Of a DNA stretch of 64,000 nucleotides, positions 44,093 through 48,980 are shown one piece after another. How positions within the stretch are numbered: position 1 is the first letter of the stretch; every line of letters begins with the position of its first letter. The position numbers were made by a program, and so were the translations under genes. Under the pieces are notes generated by a model. The model saw only the letters and a list, made by a program, of their open reading frames with translations. It was not told the DNA's origin and ran no database searches. The DNA comes from Laspinema sp. D2d (GTDB taxonomy: Bacteria > Cyanobacteriota > Cyanobacteriia > Cyanobacteriales > Laspinemataceae): positions 186,001 through 250,000 of the forward strand of contig NZ_JAMXFC010000005.1 in NCBI RefSeq assembly GCF_025370755.1, given 5' to 3'.

Positions 44093-45205
44093 ATGGATCA
44101 CAAAGGGGGTAGTAACTTGAATTTTGGTAACCTGATTGGGGCAATTGCTTTAATTGTTTCCTTGATTATTATCTGGGAAATTAGAACCGTATTGTTGCTG
44201 ATTTTTGCCGCCGTTGCCTTTGCTACAGTCCTCAATCGGATGGTGCGTCGCTTGCAGCGATCGCGGCTTAATCGCGGGTTTGCCATTGCCCTGACGATTG
44301 GCCTTCTTTTCGCCATCATGGGTTTATTTTTTCTGTTAATTTTTCCCACGGTTGTTGCTCAATTTCAAGAGTTGCTAGAGCTACTCCCTAAAGCTCTAGC
44401 TCAGTTAAGGGAGTGGTATCGATGGTTGGAAAAATTTATTCCTAATCAGCTTATGGAAGATATTCAAAATGTTGAATTTCTATCCGAACGAATTTCTAAA
44501 ATCAGTTTAAGTTGGTTTGGCGGGTTCTTTAGTATTTTCTCCAACTCGTTAGATTTTGTATTAAACCTCCTCCTCGTCCTCGTGCTGATTGTCATGCTTT
44601 TAGCCAATCCAACCCTCTATCGACAGAGTTTTATGCTGATATTTCCAGCATTTTATCGGAGACGGGTGGATGAAATTCTCCAAGGATGCGAAAAAAACTT
44701 GGTGGGTTGGGCCATTGGCCGAATTTTTAACATGGTTTTTATTGCGATCGTCAGTGGATTAGGCTTATGGGCAATAGGCGTCCCTTTAGTCTTAGTCAAC
44801 GCCATCATTTCGGCTTTACTCAGCTACATTCCCAATCTTGGCCCAATTCTGGGTTCCATTCCACCCATCGCCCTCGCATTCCTAGATTCCCCAGTTAAAG
44901 GAGTGATCGTCATTATCTTTTACCTCTGTATTGAGCAGCTAGAAGGGCTAGTTTTAACCCCCATGATCATGGAAAATGAAATTTCTTTACCTCCAGCGGT
45001 TACCTTAAGCTCTATGTTGATTTTTTCTCAATTTTTTGGTCTGCTGGGTTTATTTTTGGCTATTCCTATCGTGGCCGTGTTACAAGTTTGGTTGAGGGAA
45101 GTCTTAGTTAAAGATGTGATGAATAATTGGACCCAAAAAGGAGCCTATGGTGCTCAAGTAAAAGACTCCTTACCCGGTGAACCTTTAACGGATTATGAAC
45201 CCTAA
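44093..45205 (+). CDS. AI-2E family transporter (PF01594 type)
   Basis: 370 residues with about eight hydrophobic segments: three at the N-terminus (LIGAIALIVSLIIIWEIRTV; LLIFAAVAF; GFAIALTIGLLFAIMGLFF), an amphipathic region at 85-150, and five in the C-terminal half. The family motif region is near 230-275 (GVPLVLVNAIISALLSYIPNLGPILGSIPP). Family members are membrane exporters or exchangers of varied substrates, including autoinducer-2 and Na+/H+; substrate is unknown here. No ribosome binding site is visible. A hairpin after the stop is shared with the convergent secreted cluster. Confidence 0.92.
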   Translation: MDHKGGSNLNFGNLIGAIALIVSLIIIWEIRTVLLLIFAAVAFATVLNRMVRRLQRSRLNRGFAIALTIGLLFAIMGLFFLLIFPTVVAQFQELLELLPKALAQLREWYRWLEKFIPNQLMEDIQNVEFLSERISKISLSWFGGFFSIFSNSLDFVLNLLLVLVLIVMLLANPTLYRQSFMLIFPAFYRRRVDEILQGCEKNLVGWAIGRIFNMVFIAIVSGLGLWAIGVPLVLVNAIISALLSYIPNLGPILGSIPPIALAFLDSPVKGVIVIIFYLCIEQLEGLVLTPMIMENEISLPPAVTLSSMLIFSQFFGLLGLFLAIPIVAVLQVWLREVLVKDVMNNWTQKGAYGAQVKDSLPGEPLTDYEP

Positions 45206-45216
45206 ATCTAAATTAA

Positions 45217-45242
45217 AACCCGCACTTTTTAGGGTGCGGGTT
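45217..45242. terminator. Bidirectional terminator between the AI-2E transporter and the secreted cluster
   Basis: AACCCGCAC and GTGCGGGTT with an eight-base loop. On the minus strand TTTTAATTT follows, so it best serves the four-gene secreted cluster; on the plus strand the T-run is only two bases plus the stem. Confidence 0.8.
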
Positions 45243-45270: not shown

Positions 45271-45906
45271 TCAAGGCTGGTTAAGAATCAGAGTTTGATT
45301 GAGGTGGCCTGTCCCACGAGTTTCGTGAGTGACGAGATTGCGATCGCCAGTTAACTCCACATAAATGCTGGAATTAGCGGGCGTATAATTGCCGATGATT
45401 TCAATTTCATGGGTGCCTGGATTGAGATAAGAGGAGAGGTCGATCGCGGTATAGTTGCCGCGAATGGTTTCCACCACTTTCCCATCGATCACAATTTCGG
45501 CGTTGATGTAAGTGCCGCGATCGCCCCAAACTTCCAGGGCTAATTGGTCGGAATCCACCGTAATTCCAGTTTCTTGGGTTTGAGATAGGGTACTCCCCCG
45601 TGACTGCCGGGAATACCCGGACTGAGACACCAGATTGGGGCGCTCAAATGGGAAAACAATCCACCCCAGTTGCGATCGCTCGAAGTGAGTGGGTTGTCCG
45701 AGGCGACTGCGACTGCGAACGGATTCAATCTTCAATCCCCCCTCGGATTCCACTCGAATCCCCTGTTCATCCACCTGAATTGACATCTGGGATTGGGCCT
45801 GAGTTGCCCCAAGCATCAAGGCCGCTAAGGAGGTGAACAGGGCAACCCATCTCACACTGTGGGGCGGCATGATTAAATACCCCACCCGTTTTATAGTTCT
45901 ATACAT
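45271..45906 (-). CDS. Secreted beta-rich protein (last gene of the secreted cluster)
   Basis: 211 residues. GAGGA lies eight bases before the ATG at 45906. A signal peptide (basic YRTIKR, hydrophobic WVALFTSLAALMLGATQAQS) precedes a mature part with repeated short strands: SIQVDEQGIRVESEGGLKIESV, then a C-terminal domain ALEVWGDRGTYINAEIVIDGKVVETIRGN ... LNPGTHEIEIIGNYTPANSSIYVEL that looks like a beta-sandwich. No cysteine in the mature part. It lies 62 bases after the 139-residue secreted protein on the same strand. Function unknown. Confidence 0.8.
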   Translation of the reverse strand: MYRTIKRVGYLIMPPHSVRWVALFTSLAALMLGATQAQSQMSIQVDEQGIRVESEGGLKIESVRSRSRLGQPTHFERSQLGWIVFPFERPNLVSQSGYSRQSRGSTLSQTQETGITVDSDQLALEVWGDRGTYINAEIVIDGKVVETIRGNYTAIDLSSYLNPGTHEIEIIGNYTPANSSIYVELTGDRNLVTHETRGTGHLNQTLILNQP

Positions 45907-45968
45907 TATTTAGGTCCTCAATAGAAAAAACAGCAGCAAATCTAACTCATTCATTCAATCCGGTTCAA

Positions 45969-46388
45969 TTACTCAATTAACCGCAATTGTTCTCGATAGC
46001 GAAGGGCTGGATTATTAATAGAGTTCAGGCGATCGACCGGATTATCTACATGGATTTGAGGATTGACCTGAATCTGCACAGGGTAGCTAGTTGATCTGAG
46101 CGATCGCTCTCCTTCTCGGATGGATTGACGAACAGAACGGTTTTGAACTGCCCGATTCGGTCCGACATGAATTTGAGTTCCCGTAGTCACAGTGGCATTG
46201 CGACCACAACTGCCAGGGTTTCCCATATCTACCGTATTGGTTTGCTGGGCCGGTCCTCCGCCACTGATGGAAATTTGTACGCCGGTATCAATTTGCACAC
46301 ATTGGGCAGCCGCTAAATCCGTAGTAACGGGGGCAATGCTGAATAAAGTGATAATCGATAAACAGCTTAGAAATGAAGAGGTTTTCAT
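45969..46388 (-). CDS. Secreted protein of the same cluster, with two cysteines
   Basis: 139 residues. Signal peptide KTSSFLSCLSIITLFSIAPVTTDLAAA; the mature protein starts with CVQIDTGVQISISGGGPAQQTN and has a second Cys in NPGSCGRNATV, so one disulphide is possible. Alternating V-x-I/T patterns (VQISISG; ATVTTGTQIHV; VQIQVNPQIHVDN) suggest beta strands, and Q/N content is high. It has no enzymatic motif. Its gene lies between the G-N-x-N protein at 46524 and the 211-residue protein. Start ATG 46388; weak ribosome binding site. Confidence 0.75.
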   Translation of the reverse strand: MKTSSFLSCLSIITLFSIAPVTTDLAAAQCVQIDTGVQISISGGGPAQQTNTVDMGNPGSCGRNATVTTGTQIHVGPNRAVQNRSVRQSIREGERSLRSTSYPVQIQVNPQIHVDNPVDRLNSINNPALRYREQLRLIE

Positions 46389-46523
46389 GAACTTTACCGC
46401 TGAAGATGACTCAAGAAAGGAGAAAAAAACAATCTTTTCTTCCGTATTTCAGGATAGAAAATAAAGGGGATGCACCGAGATTGAGTCTGATAGCGCTTTC
46501 ACGAAATTATCAAAATTAGGCGA

Positions 46524-46850
46524 TTAGTACCGCAGGAAATTTTGAGAATTTCGTGAAGCAGGGTTGGGAAGATTAGCCGGAGTGCGGATGAGACTGGGGC
46601 TAACCGATTGGTATAGGCGATTCGAGGATGGCATTGACGAATTTGGAAAGGTCCGACCCCGGGGGTCAACATAATATAGATTGACGTTTTGATTAACGGT
46701 GTTACCGTTGCCAGTAATCGCCGTTTGTTGATCAATCGAGGGAATCGGAGGGCGATTGTTACCCGGGGAGAGTTGTGCGGCTAAGGGAGTGGCGATCGCC
46801 ACGGTGGACAGGGTAGCGGCTAGACCGACTCGGATCAAATGTGTGAACAT
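46524..46850 (-). CDS. Secreted Asn/Gln-rich protein with a G-N-x-N motif
   Basis: 108 residues from the ATG at 46850; a GTG three codons upstream (46859) is also possible. Signal peptide (HLIRVGLAATLSTVAIATPLAAQ), then AITGNGNTVNQNVNLYYVD near 63-81, which repeats the motif of the neighbouring protein at 46934, and a Ser/Asn/Pro-rich tail (PNSSMPSSNRLYQSVSPS). No cysteine. The composition and motif recall amyloid-forming curlin-type repeats, but the motif occurs once here. Likely extracellular; function unknown. Confidence 0.75.
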   Translation of the reverse strand: MFTHLIRVGLAATLSTVAIATPLAAQLSPGNNRPPIPSIDQQTAITGNGNTVNQNVNLYYVDPRGRTFPNSSMPSSNRLYQSVSPSLIRTPANLPNPASRNSQNFLRY

Positions 46851-46933
46851 AATGGGCACCGTGAGTAAAGGGAATGACGTCGGGTGAGATGTATCCCGAC
46901 GTCAAGATCGGGAGTCGTTCACAGGCGATCGCC

Positions 46934-47341
46934 TTAATGTTTCTTTTGATAGGGAGGACGAGGGCGAGGTGAGAACCGAGTGCTATCTGCTTCCACAGTC
47001 GTTTGACGGTTGCTTTGACGCACTTGATTGTGATGTCCGTAAACATCTGCATTCTGCAATTGGTCCTGAACAACCCCTTGATTGCCCAATCCACCACCCC
47101 GGCGATCGATATTGGTTTGGGTGGAATTTTGGTCAACATAGTTGCCATTGCCAGTCACTACCGCACTTTGTTCACTGGTTTGGACTACGGCACTATCCCC
47201 ACTGACGCGGTATCCCCCAGCTTGTGCAGGAAGGGGGGCAATGCCTAAAGTGGCGAGGGTGAGTAAACCCAAGACTGCACTGAGTTTCGGCATTTTGACA
47301 GATTGAGCAACGGTTTGATAAGCCTTGAGAGAGATAATCAT
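46934..47341 (-). CDS. Secreted Asn/Gln-rich protein with two curlin-like repeats (first gene of the cluster)
   Basis: 135 residues (or 119 from the ATG at 47293). Signal peptide PKLSAVLGLLTLATLGIAPLPAQA. The mature part has two imperfect repeats of the form V-x-G-x-x-N-x-V-x-Q-x(3)-Q-T: VTGNGNYVDQNSTQTN near 61 and VYGHHNQVRQSNRQTT near 99, with a Gly-rich segment between. The spacing of Gly, Asn and Gln recalls curlin repeats of bacterial amyloid. The tail is basic (FSPRPRPPYQKKH). It lies 83 bases upstream of the related gene at 46524. No csg secretion genes are seen in the window. Confidence 0.78.
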   Translation of the reverse strand: MIISLKAYQTVAQSVKMPKLSAVLGLLTLATLGIAPLPAQAGGYRVSGDSAVVQTSEQSAVVTGNGNYVDQNSTQTNIDRRGGGLGNQGVVQDQLQNADVYGHHNQVRQSNRQTTVEADSTRFSPRPRPPYQKKH

Positions 47342-47847
47342 TGGTTTTGTCTCGTTTGAAGTGAGTAAGGGTTAAGGAGTGAAGCGTTGGCGCAACCCTC
47401 TTTAATCCTCTGAACTTCTCCATTAAAGAGCCTCTGTTTTCTCTTGTCAAGGGATTTTTCAGTTTTTTTTAAGAGCCTCTCCGGGGGATTTTAGAGGAGT
47501 AGTCCGAGATTTTTTAGGGTGATTCTGCAAAATTTAGGGAGTTTAAATCTTAACTTAGCTTTGAACTTTGAGGTCTAATTATATTGCAATCTCACCATAA
47601 AAGTTGTGGTTAGGTTTGCCTCTGAAACGGGGTGAAACCGTCCGGGAGAAAACAGGTAAACTTTTGTAAAAAAAAGAGGGGAATTTCCCCTCTGAGTGTT
47701 ATCGTGAATGCAGACGATATCCCTTGAATGACTTCCCGCCCGATTAGAGCGGGGCTTGTTATTTGATCGCAGAGTAGGCGTTGCCCAGGTGCTTCCGGGG
47801 AGTTCAACGGTCAGCGGTTGCGATCGCCATCTGACCTTCTCCCCCTC
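47342..47847. other. 506-bp spacer holding a promoter zone and a terminator
   Basis: Between msrB (stop 47848) and the secreted cluster (start 47341), both minus strand. The part at 47440-47620 is AT-rich and the likely promoter region of the cluster. The terminator at 47667-47693 closes the upstream operon. No gene is supported. Confidence 0.5.
47667..47693 (-). terminator. Intrinsic terminator (minus strand)
   Basis: AGAGGGG AATTT CCCCTCT read on the plus strand; on the minus strand the stem is followed by at least eight T. It terminates the fibrillin-msrB transcript about 155 bases after the msrB stop. Confidence 0.88.
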
Positions 47848-48249
47848 TTAATCTTCCCCTTTCTCAAAGTTCAGGGATGCTGAATTAATGCAGTAGCGCA
47901 ATCCCGTCGGTTTCGGTCCATCGGGAAAAACGTGACCGAGATGGGCGTCACAGTTGGCGCAGAGAACTTCTGTGCGACGCATAAACAGGGCGCGGTCCTC
48001 TTCTTCGGCAATATGACCCTCTTGAATCGGTGCCCAAAAGGAGGGCCAACCAGTACCGGAGTCAAACTTAGTCTGTGAACTGAATAACTCAGTCCCGCAA
48101 CAGACACATTTATAAACTCCCTTCTCTTTATTATCGTGGTAGGCTCCCGTAAATGCTCTTTCAGTTCCCTTCTTGCGGGTGACTTTAAACTGTTCCGGGG
48201 TGAGTTGCGCTTTCCACTCGCTTTCCGATTTTTGAATTTTCTGAACCAT
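47848..48249 (-). CDS. msrB: Peptide-methionine (R)-S-oxide reductase
   Basis: 133 residues, full-length MsrB. It reduces methionine-R-sulfoxide in oxidised proteins. The structural zinc site is Cys48, Cys51, Cys97 and Cys100 (YKCVCCG and LCANCD); the catalytic Cys120 sits in [11 protein letters not shown], and GTGWPSFW and [10 protein letters not shown] are also typical. ATG start. It begins three bases after the stop of the fibrillin gene, so the two are one operon; the pairing suits protection of photosynthetic membranes from oxidation. Confidence 0.97.
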
Positions 48250-48252
48250 TGT

Positions 48253-48840
48253 TCATTCCTCTGCTGGGGTATGTGAAAGTATTATTCTATCGTTATCCTT
48301 GCAGAGGGTTGGGGTTGAAGTCCCTACTCGGCGGTAGAGGGAAATCCCACCTCGATCGCCCCGTTCTAAATGGAGGTCCTCATCTAGGTAGGTGGTTTGC
48401 AACCATCCCGAGGCCCACTTGCCTAGGGGCAGTTTGAGGGGTCCCAACGGGCCGATTTGAAACCCCAGGCGCTCAAATCGGAACTGAATGCGGTGCTGTT
48501 TGTACTCAAAAGGACCGCCCACAATTAGGGAACTCCCAGCAAGGGTAATCTGATTTTCAAACCACAGGCGCTGGCAATCTAGGCGCTGGATGACGGAGGC
48601 GATCGCCTTGCGGTTCATGCCTTTCCCCCGGTGGTTCAATTTCTGCGCATTGCGGGTTCCCGAGGTCCAGAGTAAGCGCCATTCCCCCTCTAGCAACTGG
48701 CGATCGCCTCGAATTTGCGCTTTTTCCAAAATGGCGACTGCCTCTTGCAGACTTTCCGAGTTCAGAGTGCCTTCTTCCGAGTCCTTCAACAGTTGCGATC
48801 GCGCCCCTTGGACTGCTTCATCCCTGGTTGGGTTGGTCAT
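48253..48840 (-). CDS. PAP/fibrillin (plastid-lipid-associated) family protein
   Basis: 195 residues from the ATG at 48840 (MTNPTRDEAV), which has GGGAGA upstream. A lipocalin-like beta barrel: LEGEWRLLWTSGTRNAQ near 64-80 is the family's N-terminal signature, followed by QRLWFENQITLAGSSLIVGGPFEYK and the C-terminal WLQTTYLDEDLHLERGDRGGISLYRR. Plant relatives coat plastoglobules and help in stress tolerance; cyanobacterial members are linked to thylakoid lipid and high-light stress. It is the first gene of an operon with msrB. Confidence 0.9.
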   Translation of the reverse strand: MTNPTRDEAVQGARSQLLKDSEEGTLNSESLQEAVAILEKAQIRGDRQLLEGEWRLLWTSGTRNAQKLNHRGKGMNRKAIASVIQRLDCQRLWFENQITLAGSSLIVGGPFEYKQHRIQFRFERLGFQIGPLGPLKLPLGKWASGWLQTTYLDEDLHLERGDRGGISLYRRVGTSTPTLCKDNDRIILSHTPAEE

Positions 48841-48980
48841 GTTCTCTTTTCTCCCCAATTTCCTTCCTAATTTATCCAACTTCTGCTCAGAAGTTCAATT
48901 CGCCCCGAATTTTCCCTAATTTTCACTGAATTGCTAAATTTTTGTCTGGGGTATTAGCACCTTTGCTCTCTGAGAAAGCA

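Follow-up and report, generated by a model that had tools for sequence, protein, structure and literature searches.

A cluster of four genes for small, exported-looking proteins lies on the minus strand of the window, by which we mean the whole 64,000-nucleotide stretch of the 6.6 Mb Laspinema sp. D2d genome that was analysed (Table 1). All four open reading frames marked by an earlier sequence-only reading were found again, as were the motifs it had picked out within them: gene A encodes two V-x-G-x-x-N-x-V-x-Q-x3-Q-T stretches (VTGNGNYVDQNSTQT and VYGHHNQVRQSNRQT), and gene B encodes a single TGNGNTVNQN. That reading also took the proteins to be exported, and by eye the N-termini of A, B, C, and D all resemble Sec signal peptides, which points to export of the four proteins by the Sec route. 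For A, the likely real start is the ATG at 47293, judging from several homologous sequences that begin there. Comparison with five near relatives gave dN/dS values of 0.08–0.21 for A, 0.20–0.36 for B, 0.15–0.20 for C, and 0.18–0.24 for D; with ratios of 0.08–0.36 throughout, A–D are therefore real genes under purifying selection.

Table 1. Genes, repeats, and candidate control elements of the cluster (positions are those of the window)
Feature	Position	Strand	Description
Gene A	46934..47341	−	Two-repeat exported protein, 135 aa from ATG 47341; putative fibre/matrix subunit
Gene B	46524..46859	−	Diverged A relative with a single repeat; start at GTG 46859 or, more likely, ATG 46850
Gene C	45969..46388	−	Mature protein of ~110 residues; invariant Cys pair C30, C61 (alignments)
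Gene D	45271..45906	−	Exported protein: C-terminal beta-sandwich and low-confidence N-terminal half
A repeat 1	47117..47182	−	Residues 54–75, QTSEQSAVVTGNGNYVDQNSTQ; model strands 53–65 and 68–80 (low confidence)
A repeat 2	47003..47068	−	Residues 92–113, QDQLQNADVYGHHNQVRQSNRQ; model strands 91–103 and 106–118 (low confidence)
B repeat GNGNTVNQ	46689–46712	−	
D C-terminal domain, Ig/FnIII-like beta-sandwich	45274..45573	−	Residues 112–211; predicted structure and fold comparison
Promoter-like TTGACA - 17 nt - TTTAAT, upstream of A	47422..47450	−	Alignment read by eye
Terminator-like stem-loop after D, T-rich tail	45217..45242	−	Terminator scan

Candidate control elements bracket the cluster. 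The TTGACA and TTTAAT hexamers upstream of A are identical in all six aligned sequences when read by eye; a consensus promoter scan, which accepts the second hexamer only with A as its second base, picked up no promoter-like site here. The 5′ leader of A (window 47342–47480) is strongly conserved among six relatives and includes two AGAGGCTCTT direct repeats, possibly an operator, that flank the promoter-like TTGACA. A structured leader RNA upstream of A was ruled out (fold stability z −0.34), and the window had no Rfam match at gathering thresholds. At the other end, the terminator that had been claimed corresponds to a terminator-like stem-loop with a T-rich tail, which is weak evidence by itself because the scan returned 4 terminator-like sites vs. 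2.5 in shuffles. The genes further out on both sides (47848–48879 and 44093–45205), which we take to resemble MsrB, a PAP/fibrillin-like protein, and an AI-2E-type permease, were common only to loci L110–L114 when flanking ORFs were clustered, and so probably lie outside the system.

The repeats of protein A follow a sharp motif whose residues fall on one face. Each of the two repeats has the pattern Q-x3-Q-x5-G-x2-N-x3-Q-x3-Q, with a common register of Q-10, Q-6, G0, N+3, Q+7, and Q+11 in a 37-protein alignment. In repeat 1, Q-10, Q-6, G, and N are present in 37/37 sequences and both Q+7 and Q+11 in 35/37, while repeat 2 has all six motif residues in 36/36 (the truncated L129 dropped out of repeat 2, leaving 36 of the 37 there). 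Among 97 distinct A proteins, defined as distinct ORFs shorter than 200 aa with profile E < 1e-10 and including B-like proteins and many close relatives, 68 carry the full six-residue motif, with 121 copies in total vs. 0 in 200 residue shuffles (which excluded residues 1–30 of every protein). When the motif columns are omitted, charged residues (D, E, K, R, H) make up 5/384 positions on the motif face and 225/768 on the other face across 64 distinct repeats, that is 1/192 and 4/192 inside vs. 105/384 and 120/384 outside. Nine repeats of E. coli K-12 CsgA and CsgB follow this parity too, with a charged fraction of 0 inside vs. 0.28–0.36 outside. Alternating faces fit any beta-structure, and they therefore support an arch rather than amyloid as such. 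Judged from its residues, the A repeat has a curli-like layout, namely a strand-turn-strand repeat with a charge-free inner face. Structure prediction, which had been put forward as a check, bears this out in part: the AlphaFold model of A has four predicted strands that form two strand-turn-strand units, with turns at both G-x-x-N sites, and these strands agree with a curli-like layout at low confidence, the model being poor (mean pLDDT 52.4, pTM 0.26).

Membership of a known family, which would have told against the sequence-only reading, was not found as far as Pfam, NCBIfam, and solved-structure sequences reach. None of the four window proteins had a Pfam match above cut-off or an NCBIfam match. 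DUF3060 (PF11259) shows a weak likeness to window A around repeat 1, where A falls under the Pfam cut-off (E 0.072; 13.3 bits, cut-off 23.1), and it appears at E 0.1 or better in 2/33 A members (best 0.018). Pfam matches among the members of the A, C, and D alignments were sporadic, each family hitting one or two members, including FmiP_Thoc5 in 1/27 C members (0.0045) and Big_7 (9.9e-5) and Glyco_hydro_2_N (0.0033), each in 1/22 D members. A profile search against solved structures gave one chance-like match for A (5zvt, 0.47) and no match at E 1 for C or D, and for C neither this search nor Pfam found known relatives. Titles and abstract openings among the literature matches listed, a coverage with preprints and most subscription journals outside it, held no description of this locus.

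The same genes occur together in other cyanobacteria, with a patchy distribution. Single-protein searches of 194 genomes of the order found relatives of A in 41 and of D in 31, and 28 of the 31 D-positive genomes were also A-positive. Profile searches of a 292-genome draw from the phylum found C in 16 genomes, A in 20, and D in 12, so that 16–20 of the 292 carry C or A. The gene-neighbour survey confirmed co-conservation: all 16 C genomes of the phylum draw have an A match near C on the same contig, and 10/12 D genomes have C, with D no more than ~500 bases away from it. A was found without C in four genomes (G025, G374, G266, and G351), the last three being weak cases and G025 having a borderline C (E 0.007); D was found without C in G025 and G335. 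Gene order is also maintained among 28 named loci from a contig search with C, although these locus counts are not independent because loci from separate searches overlap in genomes. A lies upstream of C in 28/28, D downstream of C on the same strand in 20/28 (a count that includes the 69-aa D of the truncated L129 and leaves out L121, where D is on the opposite strand), family E before C in 19/28, and a short B-like protein with a single repeat after C in 10/28; some weak D matches at the loci (~1e-3) are family E and not D. The closest named carriers by C are Laspinema olomoucense, Phormidium pseudopriestleyi, Laspinema palackyanum, and two Oscillatoria records, and carriers overall include Laspinema, Phormidium, Argonema, Crocosphaera, Cyanothece, Hyella, Hydrococcus, Aphanothece, Snowella, and Chroococcus records. 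A search for plasmid carriage of C gave no match.

Clustering of flanking ORFs of at least 90 aa yielded E as the only further family across distant loci. What remained were antisense ORFs, genes flanking the loci of close relatives, and one long protein in L129, L131, and L133, and no outer-membrane channel gene common to distant loci was recognised among these ORFs. A is present in one to five tandem copies per locus. At L088, three tandem A copies with equal scores lie ~370 bases apart, and at L089 identical A copies lie ~10 kb apart in one genome; these copies represent recent duplication of the subunit gene. Locus L129, a contig titled “Candidatus Gracilibacteria”, bears the cluster, whose A and D frames are truncated there; its sequences are close to those of Hydrococcus (L127), and it is probably a misbinned cyanobacterial contig.

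The A repeat also appears in much larger proteins, both beside some loci and elsewhere, which have 3–5 repeats that each retain five or all six of the motif residues. Motif columns aside, the inner face of these repeats is hydrophobic and low in charge, the charged fraction being 0.06 and 0.04 vs. 0.24 and 0.27 outside (30 distinct repeats). In L144 (the same gene as in L077) the repeats run into RTX repeats (PF00353, 7e-8), and an 811-aa protein at L145:1474-3909 combines three repeat copies with a 5′-nucleotidase C-terminal domain (PF02872, 1.9e-19) and DUF4114. RTX, 5′-nucleotidase C-terminal, and DUF4114 domains are usual in secreted proteins. Some other large multi-repeat proteins end in what by eye is a PEP-CTERM-like tail, with no model match. 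One such protein used as a query had matches in 8/194 genomes of the order, and none of these large proteins was found in the six searched genomes of the window's genus.

The resemblance to curli is one of layout. Like curli, the cluster encodes small exported repeat proteins built on strand, G-x-x-N turn, and strand, in which Gln and Asn line the inside and charges lie outside; the major protein is likewise accompanied by a minor relative (B), and small putative helper genes lie nearby. The repeats themselves differ: A has longer arms with Gln at -10, -6, +7, and +11, whereas curli has Gln at -2 and +9, and window A has two repeats 38 residues apart, whereas K-12 CsgA has four strict ones 22–23 apart. 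The minimal curlin repeat X6-Q-X-G-X2-N-X10 (PMC3521004) is absent from window A, where position -2 is V in both repeats. Across the 97 distinct A relatives, Q.G..N occurs in 31 (49 copies vs. a shuffle mean of 10.4) and the strict curlin core Q.G..N.A...Q in none. Curlin_rpt (PF07012) was found in 0/194 genomes of the order at E 0.01, with a positive E. coli control, and the 33 A members, which between them matched 9 families, did not match it. Profiles of the curlin and A repeats align at the turn only (9 columns, probability 19.7%), with a score reached by 1/200 column shuffles. The curlin-like spacing proposed from the sequence thus stands as regards the strand, turn, strand order and the charge-free face; as the profiles align only across the turn, convergence is a safer reading than kinship to curlin.

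The helper proteins likewise set the cluster apart from curli, with C, D, and E having no match to csg proteins. Csg-type export genes had been reported as missing from the window, and a search of the whole genome also gave no match to CsgG, CsgE, or CsgF. CsgG (PF03783) is present in 44/194 genomes of the order and in 0/6 searched genomes of the window's genus, and searches with PF10627 and PF10614 found no CsgE or CsgF in 19 genomes, comprising the window's own and its relatives (E. coli control positive). Five of the 41 A-positive genomes have CsgG (G073, G099, G107, G132, and G145) vs. about nine expected by chance. Four more CsgG genomes show the system in other searches: A and C occur by profile in G029 and G053, and the single-protein search found D in G148 and G161, G148 having A and C as well (L100). 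CsgG therefore accompanies the system in some genomes only and is not tied to it. The D profile scored 4.3 bits against CsgC, as high as which 35/500 shuffled CsgC sequences score, and CsgC is absent among the D fold matches listed by Foldseek and VIA-align, an absence that does not by itself exclude CsgC. Membership of the csg system was rejected on the PF07012, PF03783, PF10627, and PF10614 searches. A true curli system that has diverged very far would share the inner/outer parity of CsgA and CsgB and the aligned G-x-x-N turn with its rarely equalled profile score, yet it would also have to accommodate an order without Curlin_rpt, A proteins without the strict core, a genus without CsgG in the genomes searched, relatives without CsgE or CsgF, and a D–CsgC match no better than that of shuffled CsgC, and we consider it highly improbable.

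B matches A of its own genome weakly (E 0.005; 6.7e-4 by profile), and many of its homologues have a basic tail. Family E comprises small exported proteins with Cys. Among the matches listed, its model reaches D of Laspinema-type loci, in the N-terminal half (1.9e-5 to 0.024), a hint that E may have merged into D there, but also A proteins at ~1e-3, so that the E–D match may be due in part to a common signal peptide. The model of the D C-terminal domain is confident (block mean pLDDT 76–95 from residue 121 on). Foldseek gave no match to D at E < 0.001, and because it aligned the full model poorly we used VIA-align, in which the best structural match is MmpS5 (Z 7.2, 88 residues, 3.0 Å) and the others are Ig/FnIII-like and sugar-binding modules, including CBM60 (Z 6.0); all these matches have Z < 8 and may mean only a common arrangement.

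The fold of D bears on two alternatives to a fibre. One is that the cluster makes a polysaccharide-binding matrix glue, in which A and B would bind acidic sheath polysaccharide through their Arg/Gly-rich linkers and basic tails, and D would be a sugar-binding beta-sandwich. R-rich linkers and tails are seen in the A alignment, and D was matched to PA14 sugar-binding domains by Foldseek and to CBM60 by VIA-align, although at such Z scores the likeness may be one of arrangement only; no sugar-binding residues were identified, and the invariant Gln/Asn register is left unexplained. We regard a glue as unlikely. The other alternative, which we rate as somewhat unlikely, is that these beta-rich proteins stay in the periplasm or at the wall without polymerising and form a small envelope complex, with the Gln/Asn ladders of A closing into a short beta-roll. 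It would suit the Ig-like D with MmpS5 as its best match, the lack of a recognised outer-membrane channel among the genes common to loci, and the absence of CsgG from the six genus genomes searched. Each A, moreover, has two repeats only, which argues for such a complex and against polymerisation. Tandem copies of A are odd for a stoichiometric complex, however, and the joining of the A repeat to RTX and 5′-nucleotidase domains elsewhere also argues against one.

Other bacterial amyloids offer partial parallels. The Fap system of Pseudomonas comprises a secreted amyloid with Asn/Gln-rich repeats and helpers encoded in its operon; its FapC repeats and FapF channel appear to differ from the cluster. 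Closer in lineage, EbfG1–4 of Synechococcus elongatus PCC 7942 are likewise small secreted cyanobacterial proteins from one operon, of which EbfG1–3 were amyloid-like in an export assay and EbfG2 formed fibrils (PMC9981879). Their amyloid hot spot follows A-(F/I)-N-I-(G/S) (PMC9981879), a motif that differs from the Q/G/N/Q register of A.

Together, our results suggest that the cluster may encode an undescribed surface-fibre or matrix system. We give about an even chance to its being an exported structural-protein system that is curli-like, not demonstrably related to curli, and has A as its polymerising subunit. In such a system, A would be a small subunit with two beta-arch repeats, in each of which two strands meet at the G-x-x-N turn; Gln, Asn, Ser, and small residues would form ladders pointing inward, and charged residues would point outward. 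The arches would stack through their Gln/Asn ladders to form cross-beta fibrils or a matrix outside the cell. B may serve as a minor or starting subunit, and C with its Cys pair, D with its Ig-like beta-sandwich, and, in many species, E may be periplasmic or surface helpers in assembly or attachment. A broader proposal, which we advance tentatively and hold to be possible rather than probable, is that many cyanobacteria have an independently evolved functional amyloid in which A forms fibres or a sheath with the aid of non-csg helpers and CsgG-free export, the repeat being reused as a sticky module in fusions with RTX and 5′-nucleotidase domains.

To our knowledge, little is known about the proteins of cyanobacterial sheaths and mats. 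With its sharp repeat motif, this compact, co-conserved locus of four or five families offers filamentous and colonial cyanobacteria a candidate fibre system that can be put to the test. If A does form amyloid, the cluster would represent a second way of building a curlin beta-arch, with helpers and a way out of the cell of its own.
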